NCBI GenBank assembly: GCA_907163375.1
Contig: CAJQUW010014413.1
Span: 1 to 64,000 of the forward strand
DNA from: Prostheceraeus crozeri
Taxonomy: Eukaryota > Platyhelminthes > Polycladida > Euryleptidae
DNA: 64,000 bases
Direction of reading: 5' to 3'
The translations under genes and the position numbers were made by a program. This document shows, piece after piece, positions 14,458-49,490 of this stretch. Within the stretch, counting starts at the first letter, position 1, and each line of letters starts with the position of its first letter. The notes beneath the pieces are model-generated. The model was given only the letters and a program-made list of their open reading frames with translations. It was not told the DNA's origin and searched no databases.

Positions 14458-14463
14458 CTCATC
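14458..14463. repeat. Left target-site duplication CTCATC
   Basis: CTCATC at 14,458-14,463 is repeated at 36,110-36,115, on the outer sides of matching inverted ends. Taking out one copy and everything between brings the two parts of the piggyBac coding region together, which confirms the boundary. Six bases is the duplication length known for Polinton/Maverick integrases. Confidence 0.93.
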
Positions 14464-17290
14464 AGTAGTAAGTAAAACTCCCCTTCTGGATAGCGCAAGA
14501 TGGCCGCCGTCGCTGACGTCCCCCCCCCTCCGGACCGGCAGAGTGTCGTGGTCGGCCGCCGTGGTGCTTCGGGTCTGACGTCCCCCCCCCTCTGGAACGG
14601 CAGAGTGTCGTGGTGTGCCGGCCACGTGCGTCCGTCAGGTTCGCTGACGTCGTCGTCCTCCCCCCCTCTGGCCGACCGTCGTATAGCGCGCGGTGATGTG
14701 GTGTCTAGGTTGGCGTGGTGTGCCGGCCAGGCTGGCGTGGTGTGCCGGCCAGGTTAGGAGGGTGGACTGTCGTAGCTCACCTGAAAAATCCTAAGTGTCA
14801 GAGTGGCTTTGTATGGGTAAAATTTTGAAAATTTTCCAAAGTGTGGAATTTCGACCTGGGACCGTCACCAAAACATTTTTCATCAAATTTCACTGACCCC
14901 CCCCCCCCCCGACAGCAATCTTCTAACTTTGGTTCTAGTGAACGGATTTTGTTCGTTCGGGTTGCATTCGAAAGAGGATGAAAAACTGCTCGACAACATT
15001 TTTTGTTGCGAGTCAATCGGACCAGCCGTTCAAAAGTTAGAGCGGTTACAAGATTTTAGGTCGGAGCTCGCTCACCTGAAAAAATCCTAAGTGTGAGAGC
15101 TCCAGTGTGGTGAAAATTTTGAAAATTTTCCAAAGTGTGGAATTTCGACCTGGGACCGTCACCAAAACATTTTTCATCAAATTTCACTGACCCCCCCCCC
15201 CGACAGCAATCTTCTAACTTTGGTTCTAGTGAACGGATTTTGTTCGTTCGGGTTGCATTCGAAAGAGGATGAAAAACTGCTCGACAACATTATTTGTTGC
15301 GAGTCAATCGGACCAGCCGTTCAAAAGTTAGAGCGGTTACAAGATTTTAGGTCGGAGCTCGCTCACCTGAAAAAATCCTAAGTGTCAGAGTGGCTTTGTA
15401 TGGGTAAAATTTTGAAAATTTTCCAAAGTGTGGAATTTCGACCTGGCACCGTCACCAAAACATTTTTCATCAAATTTCACTGACCTCCCCCCCCTCTGGA
15501 CAGCTAGCTTCGCTCTTGGCTTCTAGTAGACGGATTTTGTCGTGCCATAGCTCGTTTGAAAGCTAAGAGTGAGACAAATTCACTGAAAGAAACGGCTTGT
15601 TCATATCTGTCTTCGTTCAAAAGTTAGAGCGCTTACAAGATTTTAGGTCGGAGCTCGCTCACCTGAAAAAATCCTAAGTGTGAGAGCTCCAGTGTGGTGA
15701 AAATTTTGAAAATTTTCCAAAGTGTGGAATTTCGACGTGGGACCGTCACCAAAACATTTTTCATCAAATTTCACTGACCCCCCCCCCCCCGACAGCAATC
15801 TTCTAACTTTGGTTCTAGTGAACGGATTTTGTTCGTTCGGGTTGCATTCGAAAGAGGATGAAAAACTGCTCGACAACATTTTTTGTTGCGAGTCAATCGG
15901 ACCAGCCGTTCAAAAGTTAGAGCGGTTACAAGATTTTAGGTCGGAGCTCGCTCACCTGAAAAAATCCTAAGTGTCAGAGTGACTTTGTATGGGTAAAATT
16001 TTGAAAATTTTCCAAAGTGTGGAATTTCGACCTGGGACCGTCACCAAAACATTTTTCATCAAATTTCACTGACCTACCCCCCCCCTCTGGACAGCTCGCT
16101 TCGATTTTGGCTTCCAGTGGACGGATTTTGTCGTGCCATAGCTCGTTTGAAAGCTAAGAGTGAGACAAATTCACTGAAAGAATCGGCTTGTTCATATCTG
16201 TCTTCGTTTAGATGTGAGACGCCATTTAAGATTTTGGGACATTGGCGAAAAACGACAGAGTTAGAATTTGGGACGTTTTGGGCTGTAGCTTCAAAACGAA
16301 GCATCGGATTGGAAAACGGATTTCAGATTTGGAATCAGCGTGAAATTCTGCATCTGTATGGTGAGTTTCAAGGCAATCGGCGAGAAAAAATTTTCAACAT
16401 TTTTCGAAAAACGACAGAGTTAGAATTTGGGACGTTTTGGTGTGTAGCGCCAAAACGAACCATCGGATGGGAAAACGGAGGCCAGATTCGGATTCAGCGT
16501 GAAATTCTGCATCGGTATGGTAAATTTGAACGCCATCGGAGAGAAAAATTTTCGCTGACGTCTCCCCCCCCCCTCTGGACAGCTAGCTTCAATCTTGGCT
16601 TCCAGTGGACGGATTTAGTCGTGCCATAGCTCGTTGGAAAGCTAAGAGTGAGACAAATTCAGTGAAACAAACGGCTTGTTCCTATCTGTCTTCGTTTAGA
16701 TGTGAGACGCCATTTAAGATTTTGGGACATTGGCGAAAAACGACAGAGTTAGAATTTGGGACGTTTTGGGCTGTAGCTTCAAAACGAAGCATCGGATTGG
16801 AAACCGGATTTCAGATTTGGAATCAGCGTGAAATTCTGCATCGGTATGGTGAATTTGAACGCCATCGGAGAGAAAAAATTTTCGCTGACGTCCCCCCGCC
16901 TCTGGACAGCTCGCTTCGATTTTGGCTTCCAGTGGACGGATTTAGTCGTGACATAGCTCGTTTGAAAGCTAAGAGTGAGACAAATTCAGTGAAAGAAACG
17001 GCTTGTTCCTATCTGTCTTCGTTCAAAAGTTAGAGCGGTTACAAGATTTTAGGTCGGAGCTCGCTCACCTGAAAAATCCTAAGTGTCAGAGTGGCTTTGT
17101 ATGGGTAAAATTTTGAAAATTTTCCAAAGTGTGGAATTTCGACCTGGGACCGTCACCAAAACATTTTTCATCAAATTCCTCTGAACGAGGGGGGAGGGGG
17201 GGTCCGTGAAATTTGGTGAAAAATGTTTTGGTAAAGGTCCCAGGTCGAAATTCGGAAGTTTTAAATTTTTCGACATTTTCACCACACTGG
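14464..17290. repeat. Left-arm terminal repeat array with poly-C tracts
   Basis: After a GC-rich first 300 bp (GCCGGCC, GCGCGC motifs) come diverged repeats of about 290-370 bp. They share the blocks GTGGAATTTCGACCTGGGAC, CACCAAAACATTTTTCATC and a run of 7-14 C beside CTGAC, and some carry an AAACGACAGAGTTAGAATTT module. Two unit types, with GACAGCAATCTTC or with GGACAGCT after the C tract, alternate. Open frames of up to 170 codons run through the units but have no known domain. The right arm carries the same array inverted and longer. Confidence 0.9.
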
Positions 17291-17488
17291 AGCTCTCACA
17301 CTTAGGAATTTTTTCACTTGTGGCATGTTACATGGACATGTGCTGACGGACCAACTTTCCGTGGTCATATCAGAATGGTTCAGGTGTCATATGATAGAGC
17401 ATGATGAGACGAATCGTTTGCAACAAAGCGCATGTCGCTACGATAAATACTTTCGGAGATAGAGCCATTTTAAGTTTTCTTCCGAGCA

Positions 17489-17496
17489 TATATAAA
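17489..17496 (+). promoter_or_regulatory. TATA box of left coiled-coil gene
   Basis: TATATAAA followed by a C run, 42 bp before the predicted first splice donor. The same element lies inverted in the right arm (near 30,856-30,863), and a variant sits in the diverged copy near 52,255. Confidence 0.75.
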
Positions 17497-17537
17497 CCCC
17501 CGACAACGTAAGTCTGATCACTTCATCGAAAGACGAG

Positions 17538-18101
17538 GTAAGCGACGGTCGTCGCTCTGAGCTCCCGATATCGGGTGTTTCAAAGGACTCTATCTTTTGA
17601 AGTAGGCAAGCTATCTTCTTACTTCAAAGTTTGTATGATAGAGTTTGATAGTGTCTTTACTACTGATAAAAATTTTTTAAAAGTAGTATGAGTAGTAAAA
17701 TGCGGAATTTTTTAAAAATTCTTAATTTTCAGTTTTTTCAAAGTTTTAACATATAGACTAAGGTTTTCAAGTATCCTGAGTTCAAATCTGCTATCAGATT
17801 TGAAATTTGACTAAGTCTAAGGCAGCTTTGAGGGGTTAGATCCCAGCTACTGATCACTACCTTTGACTCGGCGTTCCTGTTACCACTTCGGGGCAGTGAC
17901 AATGATGTCTTCAGCTGTAAAGAGCGGGTATCGGGGAAGATCTCTCACTTCCCTAGTGATCAGTACAAGGACTTCGGGCTGTCGACGGGATCGAGTGCCA
18001 CTCACTACACTCAAATCTATCATTCCTGACTAAGTGTAATACTTTAGGAATATGACTGTACTACATGATTCCAAACTTATACAAATTTCATTATCTTACA
18101 G
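17538..18101 (+). other. 5'-UTR intron with conserved hairpin
   Basis: The donor CGAG|GTAAGC and acceptor TTATCTTACAG| bracket 564 bp directly upstream of the coiled-coil start codon. The intron contains a 12-bp stem TACTGATCACTA (about 17,853) pairing with TAGTGATCAGTA (about 17,955). It is kept in all three copies; in the copy at 51.8-51.9 kb one A-U pair has become a G-U pair. Splicing is predicted, not observed. Confidence 0.6.
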
Positions 18102-18118
18102 TTAACAATAAATCAGGC

Positions 18119-19285
18119 ATGGCAAACGATAAGAATCGTAAATATCACATCAAAATGTGCTCATGTGGGCGAATTAATCGCAGTGCGGACGCCAAGGCGC
18201 ATGTCAAGAAGGCGGGCACCGGCCACATGATTATCTTGAATAGGGTTGCGTGTGTGAAGTGCAGAGTGCTGAAGGGTGATGAGGATGAGGCGCGTTTCTA
18301 CAGAGTGCATGCTGACTGTAGTGGTGGTTTAGTGACTGATTTGAGATTTACGCAGTTGATTGTGGAAGAGAGGGAGCGAATGTTGGCGATCGAGCGAGAG
18401 GGTAAGGTTGAGAATGTTGTTGAGAATGTTGTTGAGAATGATGAGTTGGCGAGAGCGGTTGCGTCGTTGGAGGGTGAGATTGAGCGAAAGAGAGTGCTTG
18501 AGAGTGATGATGAGGATGATGTGGATTTAGATAGGGAGCGTGTGAGGAAAATGAGCTCTTCGTCGTCGGAGGTGTCAGACATTGTCATCACCGACCCCCC
18601 GAAGAGCTCATCTTCCCCAAAAGTGAAGAGTGGTGGGATTCGTGTGCAGTCGGCGAGGTGGTTGAAGGATGAAGAGAAGAGGCATGTTTCGCAGCAGATG
18701 GCGCATGATTTGTTGGTTAATAAGTATGAGAGTTTGAAGAAAGTGAAGGATGAAGTTGTGAAGGAGTTTGATGAGTTGAAAAAGAAGGAACTGAAGTCGA
18801 AGGAGGTAGCGGATGAAAATATTAGAATGAGGCGTAGTGTGACTGATTTGAAGAATAAGACGCGAGAGTTGGAAGAGAAGAATGATGAGTGTGAGAAGAG
18901 GGCGAGTGCTGCGGAGAGAAGAATGAGAGATGCAGAAGCGAAGTTTGAGGAGATGATGAAGGAGATGAGTGTGTTGAGAGCGAGGAATGTTGAGTTAGAG
19001 AGGACTGTGCCTCGGCGGGGTGATGAGAGGCAGGCGTATGAGAAGTTGGAGCGCATGAGGGATGAGTGGGAACGTGTGAATGGGGATCGTTTGTTTGAGT
19101 TTCACATCCCTATTCGGGATAATCATTTGGCCGGCGAAGTACTCGTGAATCAAAATCTGGACGAGTCCATCCTATGCTATAACGGCCATCCAACGAAAAA
19201 ATGTTTGCATGCCAGCCTAAGAATGCGCGGTCACTTGCACAAATTTTCTATTCGGAAGCGCGCGAGACTGCCAAAGGATGGCTAA
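18119..19285 (+). CDS. Coiled-coil protein with Cys/His N-terminus, left-arm copy
   Basis: About 388 residues, starting at MANDKNRK. An upstream in-frame ATG at 18,065 lies inside the predicted 5' intron, so I prefer 18,119. The first 60 residues contain CSCG, two His and CVKC, which could bind a metal. A Ser-rich linker (residues about 145-170) precedes a long charged region with heptad-like Leu/Glu/Lys pattern, roughly residues 190-320, predicted coiled coil. A conserved tail holds FEFHIPIRDNHLAGE. I do not recognise the family. The TAA stop is followed within 4 nt by a second intron (19,290-19,350) and then by a histone-like 3' hairpin. The right-arm copy is almost identical but has a premature stop; a third, deleted copy lies at 50,884-51,676. 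Confidence 0.8.
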   Translation: MANDKNRKYHIKMCSCGRINRSADAKAHVKKAGTGHMIILNRVACVKCRVLKGDEDEARFYRVHADCSGGLVTDLRFTQLIVEERERMLAIEREGKVENVVENVVENDELARAVASLEGEIERKRVLESDDEDDVDLDRERVRKMSSSSSEVSDIVITDPPKSSSSPKVKSGGIRVQSARWLKDEEKRHVSQQMAHDLLVNKYESLKKVKDEVVKEFDELKKKELKSKEVADENIRMRRSVTDLKNKTRELEEKNDECEKRASAAERRMRDAEAKFEEMMKEMSVLRARNVELERTVPRRGDERQAYEKLERMRDEWERVNGDRLFEFHIPIRDNHLAGEVLVNQNLDESILCYNGHPTKKCLHASLRMRGHLHKFSIRKRARLPKDG

Positions 19286-19289
19286 CTTG

Positions 19290-19350
19290 GTAAGTGAAAA
19301 AGTAAATAAGATAGTATATCCTATTCTAATACATATCATTTTCATTGCAG
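19290..19350 (+). other. Short 3'-UTR intron
   Basis: CTTG|GTAAGT to TTCATTGCAG| gives a 61-bp intron right after the stop codon of the coiled-coil gene; the mature message would then run into the hairpin at 19,403. Matching splice signals occur in the right arm and, in altered form, near 50,737-50,795. Confidence 0.6.
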
Positions 19351-19402
19351 ATCTTTGCCCGCCTTCACCACCCCATCAATTCACTCCCGAGAACGAACCA
19401 TC

Positions 19403-19418
19403 GGCTCTCTTAAGGGCC
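19403..19418 (+). terminator. Histone-type 3' stem-loop 1
   Basis: GGCTCTCTTAAGGGCC folds as a 6-bp stem with a 4-nt loop (CTTA), with GG at the base, a U-A pair closing the loop, and ACC directly after. These are the hallmarks of the replication-dependent histone 3' stem-loop bound by SLBP. It lies downstream of the coiled-coil gene. The preceding GAGAACGAACCATC is shared with the other copies. Confidence 0.75.
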
Positions 19419-19419
19419 A

Positions 19420-19540
19420 CCTAGGGGCAAGACATGATAGAACCTCCACGCGGTTTGCCCTGGACAGTCCTCGGACTGGCGAATACTATCATTAAGTTGA
19501 ATCTGCTATCAGTCAACTTGAACGTTGCGTCGCGTTAGAG
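19420..19540 (+). promoter_or_regulatory. Intergenic cassette, copy 1
   Basis: Between each stem-loop and the next gene lies a repeated segment of about 110 bp with CAAGACATGATAGAACCTCC, a CGGTTTGCCCTGG block and TGCTATCAGTCAACTTGAAC. Further copies occur at 19,896-20,000 and 20,422-20,526, and inverted in the right arm. Its position just upstream of TATA boxes suggests a promoter-proximal element. Confidence 0.55.
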
Positions 19541-19543
19541 GGT

Positions 19544-19550
19544 TATATAA
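19544..19550 (+). promoter_or_regulatory. TATA box of small gene 2
   Basis: TATATAA, 33 bp before the start codon region of the 88-residue gene; the leader is TTTCAT-rich. Confidence 0.65.
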
Positions 19551-19582
19551 ACCACTGCCTCTCATTTCATTTCATTTCAATC

Positions 19583-19849
19583 ATGCAGACGCCAAACAGT
19601 CAAGTCAGCTCTCCTCGCGGACCGCAGTTAAGGCCGCGAAATTTATTTGAGGAGTTTGTCAGGCTAGAGGAGCAAGACAGAGTCCACAATAATCTTGCTC
19701 GGATTGGCAATCCGATGACAGCAACTGCTGTCAATCCAACGGAATGGCGCTACATTCCACTTTTTAGTCACGTGCCAATTAGCGTGGAAGTCGACAGTGC
19801 TACCAAAGAGAGAGTCAAAGACTCTCTCAGCAGAATTGGTAGGGTGTAA
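19583..19849 (+). CDS. Small unknown protein (88 aa), left arm only
   Basis: The protein starts MQTPNSQVSS, has a basic N-terminal third (RGPQLRPRN), then a mostly hydrophilic body ending SLSRIGRV. No domain recognised. A TATA box lies upstream and the second histone-type hairpin lies 30 bp after the stop, so the transcription unit looks complete and very short. The right arm lacks this gene altogether, which fits loss by recombination between the flanking cassettes. Coding status is inferred from the promoter-ORF-hairpin layout. Confidence 0.6.
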   Translation: MQTPNSQVSSPRGPQLRPRNLFEEFVRLEEQDRVHNNLARIGNPMTATAVNPTEWRYIPLFSHVPISVEVDSATKERVKDSLSRIGRV

Positions 19850-19878
19850 GATGACATTACTCCCGAGAACGAACCATC

Positions 19879-19894
19879 GGCTCTCTTAAGGGCC
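19879..19894 (+). terminator. Histone-type 3' stem-loop 2
   Basis: Second copy of GGCTCTCTTAAGGGCC followed by ACCATG, 30 bp after the stop codon of the 88-residue gene, again preceded by GAGAACGAACCATC. Confidence 0.75.
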
Positions 19895-20067
19895 ACCATG
19901 AGGCAAGACATGATAGAACCTCCACGCGGTTTGCCCTGGGCAGTCTTCGGCCTGGCGAATACTATCATTAAGTTGAATCTGCTATCAGTCAACTTGAACA
20001 TTATGCAGTCGATTGCTATCCCTGAAGCATTCTGATTCGCTGTTGAGCAATTCATTGTTGAAAACCC

Positions 20068-20074
20068 TATATAA
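20068..20074 (+). promoter_or_regulatory. TATA box of small gene 3
   Basis: TATATAA in CCCTATATAAGCC, 42 bp before the ATG at 20,116. The right arm has the same box inverted near 28,756-28,762. Confidence 0.65.
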
Positions 20075-20115
20075 GCCAGAAGATTGTAGCGCTTCTCATT
20101 CAATTTGAAGTCACG

Positions 20116-20370
20116 ATGGAAGCGACATCTGCCGACAACATTCCCGTCTTCATCGATGAAGACAACGCCATTCCCGAGTTCGTCATCCTCGACGAGTGGG
20201 ATGAAGAGGATGAGAAGAAGGGGAAGATCAAGAGGATCGTTTGGACGGATGAGGTGTGGACTCCTAAAACCACCCGCATCCGAAAGGTGCCAGATGCACC
20301 TGTACGACCTCGGCGGTATAGGGTCTATGACAACCTAACCGTCATACCCATTGACTATTCCAGCCAATAG
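20116..20370 (+). CDS. Small acidic/basic protein (84 aa), left copy
   Basis: The protein begins MEATSADNIPVFIDED; an acidic stretch (DEWDEEDEKK) is followed by a basic, proline-containing C-terminal half. The family is not recognised. A second frame at 20,105-20,338 reads a Ser-rich string and is probably a shadow. The gene lies between a TATA box (42 bp upstream) and a histone-type hairpin (35 bp after the stop). The protein in the right arm (28,460-28,714) is identical, so there is no divergence with which to test selection. Confidence 0.65.
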   Translation: MEATSADNIPVFIDEDNAIPEFVILDEWDEEDEKKGKIKRIVWTDEVWTPKTTRIRKVPDAPVRPRRYRVYDNLTVIPIDYSSQ

Positions 20371-20974
20371 TCAAATTCACACCCCCCCCCGAGAACGAAC
20401 CATCGGCTCTCTTAAGGGCCACCATGGGGCAAGACATGATAGAACCTCCTCGCGGTTTGCCCTGGGCAGTCTTCGGACTGGCGAATACTATCATTAAGTT
20501 GAATCTGCTATCAGTCAACTTGAACGTTGTAAATGAAGTTCGGTGTAATACCTCCTTTCGACGGGCGTTCCTGTAAAGGGCGGCGGTGAAACCCGTAGCT
20601 ATGTATACCGCAAGGGACATTCGGCAATGGTCAATCTTGTTAAACCTCTCTGCGTCATGTTTGCAAGTGATTGCCTCTGTCTCAACGTAGTATACATTCG
20701 CGCCTGGGCGACATTTAGCCAACTGTCGAAGGTTGCCTAAAACTTTCCATTGCATACGTTATGAGAACCATGAGTTCTACCTGTCTCTATCAATGAGACG
20801 AATTGATGAATGGAATGAAATGGGAGGACATTCACGCGCCACACGCAACATAACACACTTCTCTCTTCCGTAGTCTAACAAGCTCTTTACACATGGATCG
20901 CAGTCGATTGCTATCCCTGTATCAGAAGTGCAAGCTATCTTAATTTTGTTTGACACTATTTCATCTATCATCAT
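20342..20974 (-). other. Outward-facing open frames, left arm
   Basis: Two minus-strand frames (137 and 65 codons) run away from the palindrome centre and across the cassette and hairpin on the opposite strand. Right-arm counterparts are at 27,854-28,453 and a diverged one begins near 50,386. They contain YYVETEA.TCKHDAE and NARRKEVLHRTS. The frame stays open in the diverged copy, but DNA similarity alone could explain this. No domain recognised; I leave the coding question open. Confidence 0.3.
20405..20420 (+). terminator. Histone-type 3' stem-loop 3
   Basis: Third left-arm copy, after a poly-C stretch and GAGAACGAACCATC, downstream of the 84-residue gene; identical 16-nt hairpin followed by ACCATGG. 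Confidence 0.75.
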
Positions 20975-21190
20975 CGCCCATATGAAATGTTTTAAGATTT
21001 ACAAGTTAGACTAAGCGTGCTATTATTTCCAAATGAAAAAGTATACATGGTTAAATCATCCACTTAAGCCCATCCGTAGTCTAACAAGCTCTTTACACAT
21101 GGATTGCAGTCGATTGCTATCCCTGTATCAGAAGTGTAAGCCATCTTAATTTTATTTAACACTATTTCATCTACCATCATCACCCATATG
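20865..21190. repeat. Direct repeat next to the satellite
   Basis: A segment containing GTAGTCTAACAAGCTCTTTA and CGATTGCTATCCCTGTATC occurs twice here, about 203 bp apart (near 20,870 and 21,073). The right arm has it once (27,845-27,965), so the arms differ by a local duplication. Confidence 0.7.
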
Positions 21191-21199
21191 AAGTGTCAT

Positions 21200-24147
21200 A
21201 AGATTTACAAGTTAGAAATAAAGTTTCAATAGTGTATGTGTTAGAAATAAAGGTGTAACTGTTTGTAAAAATAAGATCGCAAGATTTACTAGTTTACAAG
21301 TTAGACTAAGTGTAAATTAAAAATAAAATTATAACTGTTTCAAGAGTTTACAAGTTAGAAATTAAGTTTCAATGGTGTATACGTTAGAAATAAAGTATTA
21401 GCTGTTTGTATATCAAAATAAAGTTTCAAGAGTTTACAAGTTAGAAATAAAGTTTCAATGGTGTGTGCGTTAGAAATAAAGTTTTAGCTGTTTGTATATC
21501 AAAATAAAGTTTCAAGAGTTTACAAGTTAGAAATAAGGTTTCAATAGTGTGTGCGTTAGAAATAAAGTTTTCGCTGTTTGTATATCAAAATAAAGTTTCA
21601 AGAGTTTACAAGTTAGAAATAAAGTTTCAATAGTGTATATGTTAGAAATAAAGATGTAACTGTTTGTAAAAATAAGATCGCAAGATTTACTAGTTTACAA
21701 GTTAGACTAAGTGTAAATTAAAAATAAAATTATAACTGTTTCACGAGTTAAAGCGTTGATGCTACGATGAACAATTAATAAGCTGAAAAGTTTTAGATTC
21801 ACTTTAACATTACCATATGTTTACAGATAGAAATGTATCACAGCAAAGCTACTTCATGAGTTAGTTTGCCAGGAGTGTATCATCTCAAACTTTTACTCCG
21901 ACTGTGGAACATTGATTTCCATGATGAAGATTTAAATAGTTAGATTCGATGACGAACAAGATTTACTAGTTTACAAGTTGCACAAAGCGTTCTACTATTT
22001 GTAAATGAAAGATATCATTTCAACAGTTTACCAGTTAGAAATAAAGTTTCAACAGTCTACAAGTTAAAAATAAAGTTTCAACCGTTTACAAGTTAAAGAT
22101 GAAGTTTCAATAGTGTGTATGTTAAGAATAAAGTTCTACCTGTTTATATGTTAGAAATAAAAATGAAGGTTCACCAGTTTACAAGTTAAGAATAAAGTTT
22201 TATCTGCTTGTATGTCAGAAATGAAATAAAGCTTCACCAGTTTAAGAGTTAAAAATAAAGTTTCAATAGTGTGTATGTTAAGAATAAAGTTCTATCTGTT
22301 TATATGTTAGAAATAGAATGAAGTTTCACCAGTTTACAAGCTAAGAATAAAGTTCTATCTGTTTATATGTTAGAAATAGAATGAAGTTTCATCAGTTTAC
22401 AAGCTAAGAATAAAGTTCTATCTGTTTATATGTTAGAAATAAAATGAAGTTTCATCAGTTTACAAGTTAAGAATAAAGTCTATCTGTTTGTATGTTAGAA
22501 ATAAAACAAAGTTTCAACCGTTTACAAGTTAAAAATAAAGTTTCAATAGTTTACAAGTTAAGAATAAAGTTTCAATAGTGTACATGTTAAGAATAAAGTT
22601 CTATCTGTTTATATATTAGAAATAAAAATGAAGGTTCACCAGTTTACAAGTTAAGAATAAAGTTATATCTGCTTGTATGTCAGAAATGAAATAAAGCTTC
22701 ACCAGTTTAAGAGTTAAAAATAAAGTTTCAATAGTGTGTATGTTAAGAATAAAGTTTTATCTGTTTATATGTTAGAAATAAAATGAAGTTTCATCAGTTT
22801 ACAAGCTAAGAATAAAGTTCTATCTGTTTATATGTTAGAAATAGAATGAAGTTTCACCAGTTTACAAGCTAAGAATAAAGTTCTATCTGTTTATATGTTA
22901 GAAATAAAATGAAGTTTCATCAGTTTACAAGTTAAGAATAAAGTTCTATCTGTTTGTATGTTAGAAATAAAACAAAGTTTCAACCGTTAACAAGTTAAAA
23001 ATAAAGTTTCAATAGTTTGCAAGTTAAAACTAGTGTTTCAATAGTGCGTATGTTAAGAATAAAGTTTTATCTGTTTGTATGTTAGAAATAAAATGAAGCT
23101 TCACCAGTTTACAAGTTAAGAATAAAGTTTTATCTGCTTGTATGTCAGAAATGAAATAAAGTTTCACCAGTTTAAGAGTTAAAAATAAAGTTTCAATGGT
23201 GTGTATGTTAAGAATAAAGTTCTATCTGTTTATATGTTAGAAATAGAATGAAGTTTCACCAGTTTACAAGTTAAGAATAAAGTTCTATCTGTTTGTATGT
23301 TAGAAATAGAATGAAGTTTCATCAGTTTACAAGTTAAGAATAAAGTCTATCTGTTTGTATGTTAGAAATAAAACAAAGTTTCAACCGTTGACAAGTTAAA
23401 AATAAAGTTTCAATAGTTTGCAAGTTAAAACTAATGTTTCAATAGTGTACATGTTAAGAATAAAGTTTTATCTGTTTGTATGTTAGAAATAAAATGAAGC
23501 TTCACCAGTTTACAAGTTAAGAATAAAGTTTTATCTGCTTATATGCCAGAAATGAAATAAAGTCTCACCAGTTTAAGAGTTAAAAATAAAGTTTCAATAG
23601 TGTGTATGTTAGAAATAAAGTTTCATACGTTTACAAGTTAAAAATAAAGTTTCAACAGTGTCTACGTTAGAAATAAAGTTTTATCTGTTTGTAAAGTACG
23701 ATCGTAGGATTTACTAGTTTGCAAGTTAGACTCAGCATTCTACTAGTTGTAAATGAAAAATATCGTTTCAACAGTTTACAGTTTAGAATAAAGTTTCAAT
23801 AGTGTGCACGTTAGAAATAAAGTTATGACTGTTTGTATGTGTATGTGTGTGTGTTAGAAATAAAGTTTCAACCGTTTACAAGTTAAAAATAAAGTTTCAA
23901 CAGTGTGTATGTTAGAAACAAAACAAAGTTTCAACAGTTTACAAGCTGAAAAATAAAGTTTCAACAGTGTGTACGTTAGGAATAAAGTTTTATCTGTTTG
24001 TAAGTTAGAAATAAAGTTTCAACCGTCTACAAGTTAAAAATAAAGTTTCGACAGTGTGTATGTTAGAAACAAAACAAAGTTTCAACAGTTTACAAGTTGA
24101 AAAATAAAGTTTCAACAGTGTGTACGTTAGAAATAAATGAAAGTAAG
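21200..24147 (+). repeat. AATAAA satellite, left arm
   Basis: About 3 kb of short, diverged tandem units, typically GTTAGAAATAAAGTTTCAAC followed by AGTTTACAA, with unit lengths near 27-40 bp and higher-order blocks. Nearly every unit carries AATAAA on the plus strand, the direction in which the left-arm genes are transcribed. Possible role: a transcription stop or poly(A) buffer between the converging arms (inference). Confidence 0.85.
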
Positions 24148-24237
24148 AAACGTGTTTGTCAAGCTTGATTCTATCATGTCAGTATGACACACATTTGATT
24201 TACAAAACATGCTTTGAATACTCATACGATGAAGTTC
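24148..24237. other. Palindrome centre (spacer)
   Basis: About 90 bp of unique sequence separates the inverted arms, which meet at ATAAATGAAAGTAAGAA on the left and TTCTTACTTTCATTTAT on the right. A single-stranded molecule could fold on itself here. Confidence 0.8.
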
Positions 24238-27200
24238 TTACTTTCATTTATTTCTAACGTACACACTGTTGAAACTTTATTTTTCAACTTGTAAACTGTT
24301 GAAATTTTATTTTGTTTCTAACATATAAACAGCTAAAACTTTATTTCTAACGTACACACTGTTAAAACTTTATTTTTAACTTGTTAACGGCTGAAACTTT
24401 ATTTCTAACGCACAAAGCGCTTAAACTTTATTCCATCATACACACTATTGAAACTTTATTTTAATCTGTAAACTGTTGAAACGATATTTTTCATTTACAA
24501 CTAGTAGAATGCTGAGTCTAACTTGCAAAGTAGCAAATCTTACGATCTTGTCTTACAAACAGTTATACCTTTCTTTCTAGCATATAAACTGTCATACCTC
24601 TATTTCTAACATACAAGCAGTTAAAACTTTATTTCTAACTTACAAACAGATAAAACTTTATTCCTAACGTACACACTGTTAAAACTTTATTTTTCAGCTT
24701 GTAAACTGTTGAAACTTTGTTTTGTTTCTAACGTACACACTGTTGAAACTTTATTTTTCAGCTTGTAAACTGTTGAAACTTTGTTTTGTTTCTAACATAC
24801 ACACTGTTGAAACTTTATTTTTAACTTGTAAACGGTTGAAACTTTATTTCTAACACACACACATACACATACAAACAGTCATAACTTTATTTCTAACGTG
24901 CACACTATTGAAACTTTATTCTAATCTGTAAACTGTTGAAACGATATTTTTCATTTACAACTAGTAGAATGATGAGTCTAACTTGCAAACTAATAAATCC
25001 TACGATCGTACTTTACAGACAGATAAAACTTTATTTCTGACGTAGACACTGTTGAAACTTTATTTTTAACTTGTAAACGGTTGAAACTTTATTTCTAACA
25101 TACACACTATTGAAACTTTATTTTTAACTCTTAAACTGCTGAAACTTTATTTCATTTCTGGTATATAAGCAGATATAACTTTATTCTTAACTTGTAAACT
25201 GGTGAAGCTTCATTTTATTTCTAACATACAAACAGATAAAACTTTATTCTTAACATACGCACTATTGAAACATTAGTTTTAACTTGCAAACTATTGAAAC
25301 TTTATTTTTAACTTGTAAACGGTTGAAACTTTGTTTTATTTCTAACATACAAACAGATAAAACTTTATTCTTAACTTGTAAACTGATGAAACTTCATTCT
25401 ATTTCTGACATACAAACAGATAGAACTTTATTCTTAACTTGTAAACTGGTGAAACTTCATTCTATTTCTAACATATAAACAGATAGAACTTTATTCTTAA
25501 CATACACACCATTGAAACTTTATTTTTAACTCTTAAACTGGTGAAACTTTATTTCATTTCTGACATACAAGCAGATAAAACTTTATTCTTAACTTGTAAA
25601 CTGGTGAAGCTTCATTTTATTTCTAACATACAAACAGATAAAACTTTATTCTTAACATACGCACTATTGAAACACTAGTTTTAACTTGGAAACTATTGAA
25701 ACTTTATTTTTAACTTGTTAACGGTTGAAACTTTGTTTTATTTCTAACATACAAACAGATAGAACTTTATTCTTAACTTGTAAACTGATGAAACTTCATT
25801 TTATTTCTAACATATAAACAGATAGAACTTTATTCTTAGCTTGTAAACTGGTGAGACTTCATTCTATTTCTAACATATAAACAGATAGAACTTTATTCTG
25901 AACATGCACACTATTGAAACTTTATTTTTAACTTGTAAACTATTGAAACTTTATTTTGAACTTGTAAACGGTTGAAACTTTGTTTTATTTCTATCATACA
26001 AACAGATAAAACTTTATTCTTAACATACGCACTATTGAAACATTAGTTTCAACTTGCAAACTATTGAAACTTTATTTTTAACTTGTCAACGGTTGAAACT
26101 TTGTTTTATTTCTAACATACAAACAGATAGAACTTTATTCTTAACTTGTAAACTGATGAAACTGCATTTTATTTCTAACATATAAACAGATAGAACTTTA
26201 TTCTTAGCTTGTAAACTGGTGAAACTTCATTCTATTTCTAACATATAAACAGATAGAACTTTATTCTTAACATACACACTATTGAAACTTTATTTTTAAC
26301 TCTTAAACTGGTGAAGCTTTATTTCATTTCTGACATACAAGCAGATAAAACTTTATTCTTAACTTGTAAACTGGTGAACCTTCATTTTTATTTCTAATAT
26401 ATAAACAGATAGAACTTTATTCTTAACATACACACTATTGAAACTTTATTCTTAACTTGTAAACTATTGAAACTTTATTTTTAACTTGTAAACGGTTGAA
26501 ACTTTGTTTTATTTCTAACATACAAACAGATAGAACTTTATTCTTAACTTGTAAACTGATGAAACTTCATTTTATTTCTAACATATAAACAGATAGAACT
26601 TTATTCTTAGCTTGTAAACTGGTGAAACTTCATTCTATTTCTAACATATAAACAGATAGAACTTTATTCTTAACATACACACTATTGAAACTTTATTTTT
26701 AACTCTTAAACTGGTGAAGCTTTATTTCATTTCTGACATACAAGCAGATAAAACTTTATTCTTAACTTGTAAACTGGTGAACCTTCATTTTTATTTCTAA
26801 CATATAAACAGATAGAACTTTATTCTTAACATACACACTATTGAAACTTCATTTTTAACTTGTAAACGGTTGAAACTTTATTTTTAACTTGTAGACTGTT
26901 GAAACTTTATTTCTAACTGGTAAACTGTTGAAATGATATCTTTCATTTACAAATAGTAGAACGCTTTGTGCAACTTGTAAACTAGTAAATCTTGTTCGTC
27001 ATCGAATCTAACTATTTAAATCTTCATCATGGAAATCAATGTTCCACAGTCGGAGTAAAAGTTTGAGATGATACACTCCTGGCAAACTAACTCATGAAGT
27101 AGCTTTGCTGTGATACATTTCTATCTGTAAACATATGGTAATGTTAAAGTGAATCTAAAACTTTTCAGCTTATTAATTGTTCATCGTAGCATCAACGCTT

Positions 27201-27840
27201 TAACTCGTGAAACAGTTATAATTTTATTTTTAATTTACACTTAGTCTAACTTGTAAACTAGTAAATCTTGCGATCTTATTTTTACAAACAGTTACATCTT
27301 TATTTCTAACATGTACACTATTGAAACTTTATTTCTAACTTGTAAACTCTTGAAACTTTATTTTGATATACAAACAGCTAAAACTTTATTTCTAACGCAC
27401 ACACTATTGAAACCTTATTTCTAACTTGTAAACTCTTGAAACTTTATTTTGATATACAAACAGCTAAAACTTTATTTCTAACGCACACACTATTGAAACT
27501 TTATTTCTAACTTGTAAACTCTTGAAACTTTATTTTGATATACAAACAGCTAAAACTTTATTTCTAACGCACACACTATTGAAACTTTATTTCTAACTTG
27601 TAAACTCTTGAAACTATATTTTGATATACAAACAGCTAATACTTTATTTCTAACGTATACACCATTGAAACTTAATTTCTAACTTGTAAACTCTTGAAAC
27701 AGTTATAATATTATTTTTAATTTACACTTAGTCTAACTTGTAAACTAGTAAATCTTGCGATCTTATTTTTACAAACAGTTACACCTTTATTTCTAACACA
27801 TATACTATTGAAACTTTATTTCTAACTTGTAAATCTTATG
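24238..27840 (-). repeat. AATAAA satellite, right arm
   Basis: Inverted counterpart of the left satellite, longer by about 0.6 kb. Units read CTTTATTTCTAAC on the plus strand, so AATAAA lies on the minus strand, again in the sense of the arm's own genes. Unit order differs in places from the left arm, showing turnover since the palindrome formed. The open frame at 25,284-25,478 is only a translation of the repeat. Confidence 0.85.
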
Positions 27841-27853
27841 ACACTTCATATGG

Positions 27854-28453
27854 GTGATGATGGTAGATGAAATAGTGTTAAATAAAATTAAGATGGCTTA
27901 CACTTCTGATACAGGGATAGCAATCGACTGCAATCCATGTGTAAAGAGCTTGTTAGACTACGGAAGAGAGAAGTGTGTTATGTTGCGTGTGGCGCGTGAA
28001 TGTCCTCCCATTTCATTCCATTCATCAATTCGTCTCATTGATAGAGACAGGTAGAACTCATGGTTCTCATAACGTATGCAATGGAAAGTTTTAGGCAACC
28101 TTCGACAGTTGGCTAAATGTCGCCCTGGCGCGAATGTATACTACGTTGAGACAGAGGCAATCACTTGCAAACATGACGCAGAGAGGTTTAACAAGATTGA
28201 CCATTGCCGAATGTCCCTTGCGGTATACATAGCTACGGGTTTCACCGCCGCCCTTTACAGGAACGCCCGTCGAAAGGAAGTATTACACCGAACTTCATTT
28301 GCAACGTTCAAGTTGACTGATAGCAGATTCAACTTAATGATAGTATTCGCCAGTCCGAAGACTGCCCAGGGCAAACCGCGAGGAGGTTCTATCATGTCTT
28401 GCCCCATGGTGGCCCTTAAGAGAGCCGATGGTTCGTTCTCGGGGGGGGTGTGA
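27854..28453 (+). other. Outward-facing open frames, right arm
   Basis: Counterparts of 20,342-20,974: frames of 66 codons (27,854-28,054) and 125 codons (28,076-28,453), reading from the satellite outward. The proteins match the left-arm versions almost exactly. Coding status uncertain for the same reasons. Confidence 0.3.
28411..28426 (-). terminator. Histone-type 3' stem-loop, right arm A
   Basis: Same 16-nt hairpin on the minus strand, downstream of the 84-residue gene copy (28,460-28,714). Confidence 0.75.
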
Positions 28454-28459
28454 ATTTGA

Positions 28460-28714
28460 CTATTGGCTGGAATAGTCAATGGGTATGACGGTTAGGTTGT
28501 CATAGACCCTATACCGCCGAGGTCGTACAGGTGCATCTGGCACCTTTCGGATGCGGGTGGTTTTAGGAGTCCACACCTCATCCGTCCAAACGATCCTCTT
28601 GATCTTCCCCTTCTTCTCATCCTCTTCATCCCACTCGTCGAGGATGACGAACTCGGGAATGGCGTTGTCTTCATCGATGAAGACGGGAATGTTGTCGGCA
28701 GATGTCGCTTCCAT
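28460..28714 (-). CDS. Small acidic/basic protein (84 aa), right copy
   Basis: Identical protein to the one at 20,116-20,370, in the inverted arm, with its own TATA box upstream and the histone-type hairpin 33 bp after the stop. Because the arms may be homogenised by gene conversion, identity does not by itself show constraint. Confidence 0.65.
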   Translation of the reverse strand: MEATSADNIPVFIDEDNAIPEFVILDEWDEEDEKKGKIKRIVWTDEVWTPKTTRIRKVPDAPVRPRRYRVYDNLTVIPIDYSSQ

Positions 28715-28935
28715 CGTGACTTCAAATTGAATGAGAAGCGCTACAATCTTCTGGCTTATATAGGGTTTTCAACAATGAATTGCTCAACAGCGAATCAGAA
28801 TGCTTCAGGGATAGCAATCGACTGCATAATGTTCAAGTTGACTGATAGCAGATTCAACTTAATGATAGTATTCGCCAGTCCGAAGACTGCCCAGGGCAAA
28901 CCGCGTGGAGGTTCTATCATGTCTTGCCCCTAGGT

Positions 28936-28951
28936 GGCCCTTAAGAGAGCC
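28936..28951 (-). terminator. Histone-type 3' stem-loop, right arm B
   Basis: Minus-strand hairpin following the coiled-coil gene copy. Its flank is a mosaic: the CACCTAGGGG side matches left hairpin 1, while the far side of the cassette matches the one after left hairpin 2. This is what a crossover that removed the 88-residue gene would leave. Confidence 0.75.
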
Positions 28952-29068
28952 GATGGTTCGTTCTCGGGAGTGAATTGATGGGGTGGTGAAGGCTGGCAAA
29001 GATCTGCAATGAAAATGATATGTATTAGAATAGGATATACTATCTTATTTACTTTTTCACTTACCAAG

Positions 29069-30235
29069 TTAGCCATCCTTTGGCAGTCTCGCGCGCTTCC
29101 GAATGGAAAATTTGTGCAAGTGACCGCGCATTCTCAGGCTGGCATGCAAACATTTTTTCGTTGGATGGCCGTTATAGCATAGGATGGACTCGTCCAGATT
29201 TTGATTCACGAGTACTTCGCCGGCCAAATGATTATCCCGAATAGGGATGTGAAACTCAAACAAACGATCCTCATTCACACGTTCCCACTCATCCCTCATG
29301 CGCTCCAACTTCTCATACGCCTGCCTCTCATCACCCCGCCGAGGCACAGTCCTCTCTAACTCAACATTCCTCGCTCTCAACACACTCATCTCCTTCATCA
29401 TCTCCTCAAACTTCGCTTCTGCATCTCTCATTCTTCTCTCCGCAGCACTCGCCCTCTTCTCACACTCATCATTCTTCTCTTCCAACTCTCGCGTCTTATT
29501 CTTCAAATCAGTCACACTACGCCTCATTCAAATATTTTCATCCGCTACCTCCTTCGACTTCAGTTCCTTCTTTTTCAACTCATCAAACTCCTTCACAACT
29601 TCATCCTTCACTTTCTTCAAACTCTCATACTTATTAACCAACAAATCATGCGCCATCTGCTGCGAAACATGCCTCTTCTCTTCATCCTTCAACCACCTCG
29701 CCGACTGCACACGAATCCCACCACTCTTCACTTTTGGGGAAGATGAGCTCTTCGGGGGGTCGGTGATGACAATGTCTGACACCTCCGACGACGAAGAGCT
29801 CATTTTCCTCACACGCTCCCTATCTAAATCCACATCATCCTCATCATCACTCTCAAGCACTCTCTTTCGCTCAATCTCACCCTCCAACGACGCAACCGCT
29901 CTCGCCAACTCATCATTCTCAACAACATTCTCAACAACATTCTCAACCTTACCCTCTCGCTCGATCGCCAACATTCGCTCCCTCTCTTCAACAATCAACT
30001 GCGTAAATCTCAAATCAGTCACTAAACCACCACTACAGTCAGCATGCACTCTGTAGAAACGCGCCTCATCCTCATCACCCTTCAGCACTCTGCACTTCAC
30101 ACACGCAACCCTATTCAAGATAATCATGTGGCCGGTGCCCGCCTTCTTGACATGCGCCTTGGCGTCCGCACTGCGATTAATTCGCCCACATGAGCACATT
30201 TTGATGTGATATTTACGATTCTTATCGTTTGCCAT
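29069..30235 (-). pseudogene. Coiled-coil protein, right-arm copy with stop
   Basis: Inverted copy of 18,119-19,285. One base change turns an Arg codon into TGA at 29,528-29,530, splitting the frame into 29,531-30,235 (N-terminal part, about 235 residues from MANDK) and 29,069-29,527 (C-terminal part, beginning MRRSV). Otherwise the proteins are nearly the same; a Gly-to-Glu change is visible near the tail. Promoter, 5' intron, 3' intron and hairpin are all present, so the mutation is recent. The product would be a truncated protein lacking most of the coiled coil. Confidence 0.8.
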
Positions 30236-30299
30236 GCCTGATTTATTGTTAACTGTAAGATAATGAAATTTGTATAAGTTTGGAATCATGTAGTACAGT

Positions 30300-31025
30300 C
30301 ATATTCCTAAAGTATTACACTTAGTCAGGAATGATAGATTTGAGTGTAGTGAGTGGCACTCGATCCCGTCGACAGCCCGAAGGCCTTGTACTGATCACTA
30401 GGGAAGTGAGAGATCTTCCCCGATACCCGCTCTTTACAGCTAAAGACATCATTGTCACTGCCCCGAAGTGGTAACAGGAACGCCGAGTCAAAGGTAGTGA
30501 TCAGTAGCTGGGATCTAACCCCTCAAAGCTGCCTTAGACTTAGTCAAATTTCAAATCTGATAGCAGATTTGAACTCAGGATACTTGAAAACCTTAGTCTA
30601 TATGTTAAAACTTTGAAAAAACTGAAAATTAAGAATTTTTAAAAATTCCGCATTTTACTACTCATACTACTTTTAAAAAATTTATCAGTAGTAAAGACAC
30701 TATCAAACTCTATCATACAAACTTTGAAGTAAGAAGATAGCTTGCCTACTTCAAAAGATAGAGTCCTTTGAAACACCCGATATCGGGAGCTCAGAGCGAC
30801 GACCGTCGCTTACCTCGTCTTTCGATGAAGTGATCAGACTTACGTTGTCGGGGGTTTATATATGCTCGGAAGAAAACTTAAAATGGCTCTATCTCCGAAA
30901 GTATTCATCGTAGCGACATGCGCTTTGTTGCAAACGATTCGTCTCATCATGCTCTATCATATGACACCTGAACCATTCTGATATGACCACGGGAAGTTGG
31001 TCCGTCAGCACATGTCCATGTAACA
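30300..31025 (-). promoter_or_regulatory. Right-arm leader: TATA box and 5' intron
   Basis: Inverted match to 17,330-18,060, including the TATA box near 30,856, the donor, the GCGACGGTCGTCGC palindrome, CCCGATATCGGG, and the 12-bp intron stem. Very few differences from the left arm. Confidence 0.65.
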
Positions 31026-31029
31026 TGGC

Positions 31030-34000
31030 ACAAGTGAAAAAATTCCTAAGTGTGAGAGCTCCAGTGTGGTGAAAATGTCGAAAAATTTAAAACTTCCGAA
31101 TTTCGACCTGGGACCTTTACCAAAACATTTTTCACCAAATTTCACGGACCCCCCCCCTCCCCCCTCGTTCAGAGGAATTTGATGAAAAATGTTTTGGTGA
31201 CGGTCCCAGGTCGAAATTCCACACTTTGGAAAATTTTCAAAATTTTACCCATACAAAGCCACTCTGACACTTAGGATTTTTCAGGTGAGCGAGCTCCGAC
31301 CTAAAATCTTGTAACCGCTCTAACTTTTGAACGAAGACAGATAGGAACAAGCCGTTTCTTTCAGTGAATTTGTCTCACCCTTAGCTTTCAAACGAGCTAT
31401 GTCACGACTAAATCCGTCCACTGGAAGCCAAAATCGAAGCGAGCTGTCCAGAGGCGGGGGGACGTCAGCGAAATTTTTTCTCTCCGATGGCGTTCAAATT
31501 CACCATACCGATGCAGAATTTCACGCTGAATCCGAATCTGAAATCCGGTTTCCAATCCGATGCTTCGTTTTGAAGCTAGAGCCCAAAACGTCCCAAATTC
31601 TAACTCTGTCGTTTTTCGCCAATGTCCCAAAATCTTAAATGGCGTCTCACATCTAAACGAAGACAGATAGGAACAAGCCGTTTGTTTCACTGAATTTGTC
31701 TCACTCTTAGCTTTCAAACGAGCTATGGCACGACTAAATCCGTCCACTGGAAGCCAAGATTGAAGCTAGCTGTCCAGAGGGGGGGAGACGTCAGCGAAAA
31801 TTTTTCTCTCCGATGGCGTTCAAATTCACCATACCGATGCAGAATTTCACGCTGAATCCGAATCTGACCTCCGTTTTCCCATCCGATGGTTCGTTTTGGC
31901 GCTACACACCAAAACGTCCCAAATTCTAACTCTGTCGTTTTTCGAAAAATGTTGAAAATTTTTTCTCGCCGATTGCCTTGAAACTCACCATACAGATAGA
32001 GAATTTCACGCTGATTCCAAATCTGAAATCCGTTTTCCAATCCTATGCTTCGTTTTGAAGCTACAGCCCAAAACGTCCCAAATTCTAACTCTGTCGTTTT
32101 TCGCCAATGTCCCAAAATCTTAAATGGCGTCTCACATCTAAACCAAGACAGATAGGAACAAGCCGATTCTTTCAGTGAATTTGTCTCACTCTTAGCTTTC
32201 AAACGAGCTATGGCACGACAAAATCCGTCCACTGGAAGCCAAAATCGAAGCGAGCTGTCCAGAGGGGGGGAGGTCAGTGAAATTTGATGAAAAATGTTTT
32301 GGTAAAGGTCCCAGGTCGAAATTCCTCACTTTGGAAAATTTTCAAAATTTTACCCATACAAAGCCACTCTGACACTTAGGATTTTTTCAGGTGAGCGAGC
32401 TCCGACCTAAAATCTTGTAACCGCTCTAACTTTTGAACGAAGACAGATATGAACAAGCCGTTTCTTTCACTGAATTTGTCTCACTCTTAGCTTTCAAACG
32501 AGCTATTGCACGACAAAATCCGTCCACGATAAGCCAAGATTGAAGCGAGCTGTCCAGAGGGGGGGAGGTCAGTGAAATTTGATGAAAAATGTTTTGGTGA
32601 CGGTGCCAGGTCGAAATTCCACACTTTGGAAAATTTTCAAAATTTTACCCATACAAAGCCACTCTGACACTTCGGATTTTTCAGGTGAGCTACGACAGTC
32701 CACCCTCCCAACCTGGCCGGCACACCACGCCAACCTAGACACCACATCACCGCGCGCTATACGACGGTGGGCCAGAGGGGGGGAGGACGACGACGTCAGC
32801 GAACCTGACGGACGCACGTGGCCGGCATACCACGACACTCTGCCGTTCCAGAGGGGGGGGACGTCAGTGAAATTTGATGAAAAATGTTTTGGTGACGGTC
32901 CCAGGTCGAAATTCCACACTTTGGAAAATTTTCAAAATTTTACCCATACAAAGCCACTCTGACACTTAGGATTTTTTCAGGTGAGCGAGCTCCGACCTAA
33001 AATCTTGTAACCGCTCTAACTTTTGAACGGCTGGTCCGATTGACTCGCAACAAAAAATGTTGTCGAGCAGTTTTTCATCCTCTTTCGAATACAACCCGAA
33101 CGAACAAAATCCGTTCACTAGAACCAAAGTTAGAAGATTGCTGTCGGGGGGGGGGGTCAGTGAAATTTGATGAAAAATGTTTTGGTGACGGTCCCAGGTC
33201 GAAATTCCACACTTTGGAAAATTTTCAAAATTTTACCCATACAAAGCCACTCTGACACTTAGGATTTTTCAGGTGAGCGAGCTCCGACCTAAAGTCTTGT
33301 AACCGCTCTAACTTTTGAACGAAGACAGATAGGAACAAGCCGTTTCTTTCAGTGAATTTGTCTCACTCTTAGCTTTCAAACGAGCTATGGCACGACTAAA
33401 TCCGTCCACTGGAAGCCAAGATTGAAGCTAGCTGTCCAGAGGGGGGGGAGACGTCAGCGAAAATTTTTCTCTCCGATGGCGTTCAAATTCACCATACCGA
33501 TGCAGAATTTCACGCTGAATCCGAATCTGGCCTCCGTTTTCCCATCCGATGGTTCGTTTTGGCGCTACACACCAAAACGTCCCAAATTCTAACTCTGTCG
33601 TTTTTCGAAAAATGTTGAAAATTTTTTCTCGCCGATTGCCTTGAAACTCACCATACAGATAGAGAATTTCACGCTGATTCCAAATCTGAAATCCGTTTTC
33701 CAATCCTATGCTTCGTTTTGAAGCTAGAGCCCAAAACGTCCCAAATTCTAACTCTGTCGTTTTTCGCCAATGTCCCAAAATCTTAAATGGCGTCTCACAT
33801 CTAAACCAAGACAGATAGGAACAAGCCGATTCTTTCAGTGAATTTGTCTCACTCTTAGCTTTCAAACGAGCTATGGCACGACAAAATCCGTCCACTGGAA
33901 GCCAAAATCGAAGCGAGCTGTCCAGAGGGGGGGGGAGGTCAGTGAAATTTGATGAAAAATGTTTTGGTAAAGGTCCCAGGTCGAAATTCCACACTTTGGA

Positions 34001-36109: not shown

Positions 36110-36115
36110 CTCATC
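36110..36115. repeat. Right target-site duplication CTCATC
   Basis: Partner of 14,458-14,463; see the palindromic element. Confidence 0.93.
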
Positions 36116-39990: not shown

Positions 39991-40070
39991 AGAGACCAGA
40001 TTTGGAATCAGTGTGCCATTTTACAGCTGAATGTCATTCATGCTATGTCTCCAAAGTGATAGGAAGAAAG

Positions 40071-41001: not shown

Positions 41002-41021
41002 ATCATGTCAACGCTCCAAAA

Positions 41022-49360: not shown

Positions 49361-49490
49361 TAAGCGGTGAATGGATGAGACCTCTCGTCCAATCACAGAC
49401 GAGCTAGAGTTCCCGATGTGCGCACGCGCATTTGTAAAACGTTCTTGAAATCGTGTTAGGCAAAAATGTTGTTTAGCAATAGACTCAACC

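Follow-up and report, generated by a model that had tools for sequence, protein, structure and literature searches.

The 64,000-nucleotide stretch of Prostheceraeus crozeri DNA analysed here (contig CAJQUW010014413.1, positions 1 to 64,000; hereafter the window) contains an inverted-repeat element whose left arm carries three genes, each followed by a stem-loop of the kind that ends histone mRNAs. Five nucleotides past the stem of each hairpin begins a fold resembling the hepatitis delta virus (HDV) ribozyme, with helices P1, P2, P3, P1.1 and P4. The pair of structures recurs in the right arm and again in a separate region, segment A, where a related leader and gene 1 lie beside Polinton genes. 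The coordinates are collected in the table.

Features of the window (strand relative to the sequence as deposited; a dot marks features given no strand)
Feature	Position	Strand	Remarks
Left target-site duplication	14458..14463	.	CTCATC
Inverted-repeat element, 21,646 bp	14464..36109	.	ends AGTAGT...ACTACT (Maverick/Polinton-type)
Gene 1	18119..19285	+	ATG to TAA, 388 aa; Cys/His-rich N-terminus, long coiled coil
Putative GT-AG intron, gene 1 3' untranslated region	19290..19350	+	by sequence; also in segment A
Stem-loop behind gene 1	19403..19418	+	GGCTCTCTTAAGGGCC exact; linker ACCTA 19419-19423
HDV-like ribozyme, gene 1	19424..19492	+	predicted cut 19423/19424; Rfam 25.7 bits
TATA motif upstream of gene 2	19544..19550	+	by sequence
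Gene 2	19583..19849	+	88 aa
Stem-loop behind gene 2	19879..19894	+	GGCTCTCTTAAGGGCC exact; linker ACCAT
HDV-like ribozyme, gene 2	19900..19968	+	one P1 and one P4 mismatch; Rfam 17.6 bits
TATA motif upstream of gene 3	20068..20074	+	by sequence
Gene 3	20116..20370	+	84 aa
Stem-loop behind gene 3	20405..20420	+	GGCTCTCTTAAGGGCC exact; linker ACCAT
HDV-like ribozyme, gene 3	20426..20494	+	predicted cut 20425/20426; Rfam 27.5 and 26.5 bits
Second hairpin (AAGTTGA...TCAACTT)	19487-19526, 19963-20002, 20489-20528, matching part of segment A		
Central AATAAA arrays	21000..27900	.	sense to each arm's genes
Right-arm HDV-like ribozyme, gene 3 copy	28337..28405	-	Rfam and structure reading
Right-arm stem-loop, gene 3 copy	28411..28426	-	GGCTCTCTTAAGGGCC exact
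Right-arm HDV-like ribozyme, gene 1 copy	28862..28930	-	Rfam and structure reading
Right-arm stem-loop, gene 1 copy	28936..28951	-	GGCTCTCTTAAGGGCC exact
Right target-site duplication	36110..36115	.	CTCATC
Segment A HDV-like ribozyme	50614..50682	-	C.C mismatch in P1
Segment A diverged histone-type stem-loop	50688..50703	-	GGTCCTCATAAGGGCC; all six pairs kept
Segment A open frame with gene 1 homologue	50884..51672	-	

As at histone mRNA 3' ends, the hairpin consists of a 6-bp stem of the form GGYYYU/ARRRCC with a closing U-A pair, a 4-nt loop and ACC behind. The sequence GGCTCTCTTAAGGGCC plus ACC occurs in the window in five exact copies, three on the plus and two on the minus strand, and its predicted presence behind all three left-arm genes holds to the letter, at distances from the stop codon of 118 nt (gene 1), 30 nt (gene 2) and 35 nt (gene 3). 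Recurrence in the right arm had also been predicted and is seen for two copies; there is no third because gene 2 is missing from that arm. The hairpins expected behind genes of segment A reduce to one, in diverged form behind a single gene. Four hairpin types (family 1, to which the window element belongs, segment A, and two from a second element family of the same genome) agree with the histone consensus at 17-19 of 19 positions, and 158.8 Mb of simulated sequence yielded a single match to the histone-type pattern. The Rfam model Histone3 (RF00032) detects five of the six window copies at 18.1-20.4 bits and leaves the segment A copy unscored. The mismatch lies in the downstream half of the model, the position that the ribozyme occupies, and no histone downstream element for the U7 small nuclear RNA was matched by that half at the window hairpins. 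One further Histone3 match (18.1 bits at 41017) lies inside an open reading frame (ORF) and looks like chance.

The original prediction of a histone-type 3' signal was right about a conserved, covarying stem-loop at the 3' ends of genes and overlooked the ribozyme-like fold behind it. Rfam matches of HDV type lie directly 3' of the Histone3 matches, reaching 27.5 bits for RF00094 and 26.8 bits for RF02682. In the window, P1 is GGGGCAA/UUGCCCU, beginning with a G.U pair at the predicted cut, P2 is AUGAUAG/CUAUCAU, P3 is ACC/GGU with the loop UCCUCGC or UCCACGC, P1.1 is CC/GG and P4 is CAGUC/GACUG. The J4/2 strand with the candidate catalytic C reads GCGAAT in family 1; family 2 and segment A instead have ACTGAAT, which is one base longer and whose C was assigned by eye. 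Only the gene 2 copy, out of five near-identical ones in the window, falls short of the complete structure and is probably weakened by its mismatches; the ribozyme of segment A is possibly weak or dead. A descriptor of the HDV fold, composed after the sequence had been seen, matched twice in the 158.8 Mb of simulated sequence and at five hairpin-adjoining folds in the window. A model of the whole module hit the window six times, always at one of the hairpin-ribozyme pairs of the table and never behind the other Polinton genes. Just 3' of each ribozyme lies a second conserved hairpin, built around ATCTGCTATCAG, and CTATCAG/CTGATAG motifs recur at 17781-17804 and 49240-49290.

The module is not confined to the window. 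The exact 16-mer GGCTCTCTTAAGGGCC occurs 12,437 times in the 2.05-Gb genome (6441 + 5996), and its reversed control does not occur at all. In the part of these matches that was listed, the hairpins are often clustered in twos or threes, with spacings of about 475-530 nt, and some contigs have inverted pairs. A genome search with the histone family, in which 75 of 295,389 candidates were scored, gave at least 19 matches, at least 9 of them over the Rfam cut-off. Seventeen of the 19 belong to the second element family, with the hairpin GGCTCTTTTAAGAGCC (in one case GGCTCTTTTTAGAGCC) and HDV-like sequence behind it, and family-2 modules account for seven of the nine over the cut-off. This family is distant from the window element, at 28-29% identity for gene 1 and 54% for gene 2, with rates of synonymous change (Ks) of 1.66-2.0 and 0.95, respectively, and ratios of nonsynonymous to synonymous change (Ka/Ks) of 0.41-0.55; silent sites between the families are near or at saturation. 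Closely related gene 1 copies within family 2 give Ka/Ks values of 0.29-0.41, and the value between gene 1 of the window element and its homologue in segment A is 0.25.

When family-2 gene-2 modules were located through the ribozyme core (loci L040-L056), all 12 had a hairpin at the equivalent place, a 16-nt form with six pairs in seven of them; most read GGTCTTTTTAAAGACC with ACCAT and GGGGCAA behind. A wider tally, made with a lenient slot (the best of 28 positions) and on loci mostly fetched by their hairpin, found one in place at 92 of 92 distinct ribozyme cores, with six pairs in 87, five pairs in three and a shortened stem in two. Damage also occurs, as in the P3 of at least one family-2 module (L043). 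In one copy, L037 (G000:C84:112719-113219), the ribozyme breaks off after its first bases and a run of at least 260 A follows, for which an insertion or a fault in the assembly may be responsible; we rejected a retrocopy of polyadenylated mRNA, given that the gene 1 intron is retained. Two other loci (L038 and L039) have histone-like hairpins without a ribozyme. They were considered as host histone ends and set aside when a script found no histone motif in the 9-kb surroundings; they may be chance occurrences in 2 Gb.

Between GGCTCTTTTAAGAGCC and GGTCTTTTTAAAGACC, three stem pairs differ in both of their bases, with the histone consensus retained. Covariation was assessed by five measures, two of which did not rise above shuffles, on rows that were hand-picked and related. 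For the stem-loop (14 distinct rows), 98.8% of cells are paired, compared with 20-63% when the alignment is slid, and the 16 double-change cells (shuffle mean 6.1) were reached by none of 500 shuffles. For the full structure (17 modules), 96.3% of cells are paired, compared with 28-47% when slid, and the 28 double-change cells (shuffle mean 10.0) were likewise reached by none of 500. Double changes are present in the stem-loop, P1, P2 and P4.

The spacing between the two structures is constant within family 1. Among family-1 copies, the linker from stem to P1 is 5 nt in all 62 distinct copies in which P1 was found (ACCAT in 44, ACCTA in 16, ACCAC and ACCTT in one each); these counts, limited to copies fitting a pattern that includes part of the ribozyme, measure spacing and not ribozyme loss. 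The same 5 nt separate the parts in 7 of 7 family-2 gene-2 modules, and in family-2 gene-1 modules, where the register is ambiguous, the distance is 4 nt if P1 is GGAGCAA/UUGCUCU. The predicted cut would thus leave an RNA ending in the hairpin plus ACCAU or ACCUA, the spacing of histone pre-mRNA cleavage, which according to an excerpt of PMC6303110 falls mainly 5 nt and to a minor extent 7 nt past the stem-loop, after ACCCA in the major case.

We consider the RNA structures, stem-loop and ribozyme together, to be well supported, and they look selected: thousands of exact hairpins, open frames with Ka/Ks of 0.25-0.41 and covariation argue for selection while the families spread. From these structures we infer cleavage, separate transcription, binding by the stem-loop-binding protein (SLBP) and S-phase timing. 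On the sequence evidence, it is probable that each gene yields its own mRNA with a histone-like, non-polyadenylated 3' end cut by its own ribozyme, with SLBP as the likely reader. We also lean, with rather more reserve, towards the fuller proposal that a Maverick-like element makes its own mRNA ends by placing a ribozyme 5 nt past a histone hairpin, such that the product would look to SLBP like a mature histone mRNA without the involvement of the U7 small nuclear ribonucleoprotein (snRNP), CPSF73 or a poly(A) tail.

Alternatively, the ribozyme might make the 3' ends without SLBP, the hairpin protecting the end or aiding ribozyme folding and its likeness to histone hairpins being convergence. 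The joint conservation of hairpin and ribozyme would suit such an arrangement, as would the C at the first loop position of family 1 and a 5' flank without adenines. However, the histone code survives the three double changes in every particular (GG base, 5' pyrimidines, 3' purines, U-A closing pair and ACC), and agreement at 17-19 of 19 positions in four hairpin types would be needless for a plain protective hairpin. Moreover, the CTTA loop of family 1 is also present in four C. elegans H2B genes, as described in an excerpt of PMC1924863. We therefore regard convergence without SLBP as unlikely.

The hairpin invites another comparison. Family 1 contains CTCTCTTAAGG, the target word of the R2 retroelement in 28S rRNA, at 11 of its 11 letters. 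The 5' end of R2 also carries an HDV-like ribozyme, whose cut falls at the junction or inside 28S sequence as far as 36 nt upstream (PMC3774820, excerpt), and the module could descend from such a junction of 28S rRNA and retroelement 5' end, with the hairpin a relic or later turned into a histone mimic. Common ancestry with the R2 ribozymes is possible. The fold has P1, P2, P3, P1.1 and P4 as well as a C in J4/2, as have those of R2 and L1Tc/ingi, which are likewise carried by mobile elements. A 28S origin of the hairpin is unlikely. The segment A hairpin retains 8 of the word's 11 letters and the two family-2 hairpins 9 and 7, whereas all of them keep 17-19 of the 19 histone consensus positions, and hairpin pairing is kept through double changes. 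No R2 reverse-transcriptase ORF was seen behind the modules, where genes 2 and 3 or nothing is found (the genome was not searched for R2 protein or 28S). Descent of the module from an R2 junction is, in our estimate, very improbable.

Ribozymes of R2 and L1Tc/ingi stand at the 5' end of retroelement RNA, whereas those described here follow the protein genes of a DNA element, at the 3' end. Given that HDV-like ribozymes of R2 and L1Tc act at 5' ends (excerpts of PMC3774820 and PMC4035085) and that the modules sit between tandem genes, the ribozyme might instead serve the downstream RNA, freeing the 5' end of the next gene from a common transcript, with the hairpin incidental. Yet every gene that follows a module has a separate TATA motif beyond that module (those of genes 2 and 3 sit between the preceding module and the ATG), the last module of the arm has no gene behind it, and the covarying hairpin belongs to the upstream product. 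A role for the downstream RNA accordingly appears to us a very slim prospect. Most family-2 gene-1 modules also have a TATA motif, about 129 nt past the hairpin. Recurring stretches running from GTAATACCTCCTTT to CGGGCGTTCCT (20540-20572, 49168-49200 and 17860-17990) are perhaps a further structured RNA or promoter element.

Neither of the poly(A) signals AATAAA and ATTAAA occurs within 400 nt of the stop codon in genes 1-3 or in gene 1 of segment A; among 15 other ORFs tested, 9 have such a signal in that range and 6 have none. In the centre of the element, AATAAA appears 65 times on the plus strand and once on the minus strand between 21000 and 24000, and 83 times on the minus and 6 on the plus strand between 24000 and 27900. 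The first of these arrays, 3 kb long, lies behind gene 3, with its mirror image in the other arm, and comparable arrays exist in another element copy (L019/L020). The modules might be relics that no longer work, any transcripts ending at poly(A) signals such as those of the arrays, and the P1 mismatches of several copies are in keeping with decay. Nevertheless, relics would hardly be expected to exhibit thousands of exact hairpins, open frames with low Ka/Ks between related copies, and covariation, and the arrays could serve as backup. We judge decay of the modules to be extremely unlikely. The arrays are possible transcription terminators, perhaps as a backup; a cut leaving a 5'-OH might not end transcription alone.

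Several observations nonetheless weigh against histone-like ends made by a working ribozyme. All window copies of the hairpin score below the curated Histone3 cut-off of 34. The original prediction had named a background score in a covariance-model search as a refutation; this applies to the window copies alone, because seven family-2 modules of the same genome exceed the threshold. The window ribozymes, at 17.6-27.5 bits, also fall below their curated Rfam cut-offs of 44 and 50. P1 is mismatched in the gene 2 module and in segment A, and weak or no cleavage goes with P1 mismatches in the examples of PMC3774820 (excerpt). In the register chosen, P1 is fully paired in only 5 of 16 parsed family-2 gene-1 modules, which were picked by hairpin score in a pairing parse that left out three of 28 rows as unparsable, and a register about 10 nt further on often pairs equally, though it overlaps P2. 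Two covariation measures are unimpressive: the count of pairs with both partners changed was reached by 150 (stem-loop) and 87 (full structure) of 500 shuffles, and the number of further pair types by 499 and 497. The 5' flank of the family-1 hairpin is AUC or ACC, in a tally of 52 rows that took in overlapping loci, and not the two adenines that belong to the minimal SLBP site according to an excerpt of PMC10388802. Family 1 also departs from histone ends in its first loop base, and the genes are not histones. Finally, introns are atypical of histone genes, while gene 1 has a putative one.

We envisage the left-arm genes as small transcription units, each comprising a short ORF, the stem-loop and the HDV-like ribozyme, with a TATA motif in front of genes 2 and 3. 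RNA polymerase II would read on beyond the stem-loop, and the ribozyme would then fold and release itself by a cut that normally falls five nucleotides past the stem. The resulting mRNA would end in the hairpin and ACCAU or ACCUA without a poly(A) tail and, like histone mRNAs, would have no nearby poly(A) signal and, for genes 2 and 3, a short 3' untranslated region. Standing where the histone downstream element is found in histone genes, the ribozyme would itself make the 3' end, replacing the U7 snRNP and CPSF73 and rendering that element dispensable. Host SLBP would protect the mRNA, export it and aid its translation, so that expression would keep pace with SLBP (in animals, with S phase) and, presumably, with replication of the element's own DNA.

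Among the proteins encoded by these units, Pfam (genes 1-3) and PHROGs (gene 1) gave nothing above cut-off, and in an AlphaFold model of gene 1 (mean predicted local distance difference test score of 53.8) the coiled coil alone is confident. Relatives in public assemblies (94% and 67% identity for gene 1, 97% and 72% for gene 2) show that the element genes occur elsewhere too. In the IMG/VR virus collection, nine contigs have the histone-type hairpin pattern, none with a ribozyme behind it by eye or by model (best score 17.8 bits, E 0.0029); two have the second hairpin type, neither with the module; the exact ribozyme-core pattern had no match; and neither the Polinton ATPase nor gene 1 had relatives there.

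The carrier is regarded as a non-autonomous relative of Mavericks. It has the (AGT)2//(ACT)2 ends and the 6-bp target-site duplication that an excerpt of PMC8097293 gives as criteria for vertebrate Mavericks, as well as terminal inverted repeats, and segment A provides a related leader and gene 1 adjoining Polinton genes. Unlike a complete Maverick, it holds no core gene that we recognised between its ends, neither protein-primed DNA polymerase, integrase, ATPase, protease nor capsid. Such genes lie at 44-63 kb, where we found an integrase with a chromodomain, weak matches to protease, capsid and ATPase, and a DNA polymerase recognised by eye. By analogy with other protein-primed linear genomes, the carrier may have a snap-back palindromic origin. 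Its subterminal repeats have long inverted repeats at their inner ends (17144-17243 and 31108-31209), which match a microRNA family weakly, at 36 bits with a cut-off of 230. The element is inserted in a piggyBac-type transposase gene, now split into 14193-14753 and 35878-37256, whose N-terminal part matches Pfam DDE_Tnp_1_7 and whose C-terminal part was recognised by eye; the transposase's own frame is also broken. Two small ORFs elsewhere in the window (39969-40493 and 49449-49943) are, by eye, like each other and like the Polinton polymerase frame at 46566-48152 in its N-terminal part.

The separate parts of this arrangement are already known, and we did not find their combination in the literature searched. 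No paper contained both 'HDV-like ribozyme' and 'histone stem-loop' in a search that covered few subscription journals, and ribozymes or histone-type ends in Polintons did not appear, as judged by titles and the openings of abstracts. According to excerpts of PMC6303110, and similarly PMC1924863, no animal protein-coding mRNAs other than those of histones are known to have a stem-loop at the end in place of poly(A). If our proposal is true, the genes of these elements would be an exception to that rule, non-histone genes using the histone hairpin code, and they would present a natural case of mRNA 3' ends made by a ribozyme and hence a third route to such ends. The function of the hairpin would be separable from that of U7 processing, and a DNA parasite would have coupled its genes to the S phase of its host, tying the expression of a selfish element to DNA replication.

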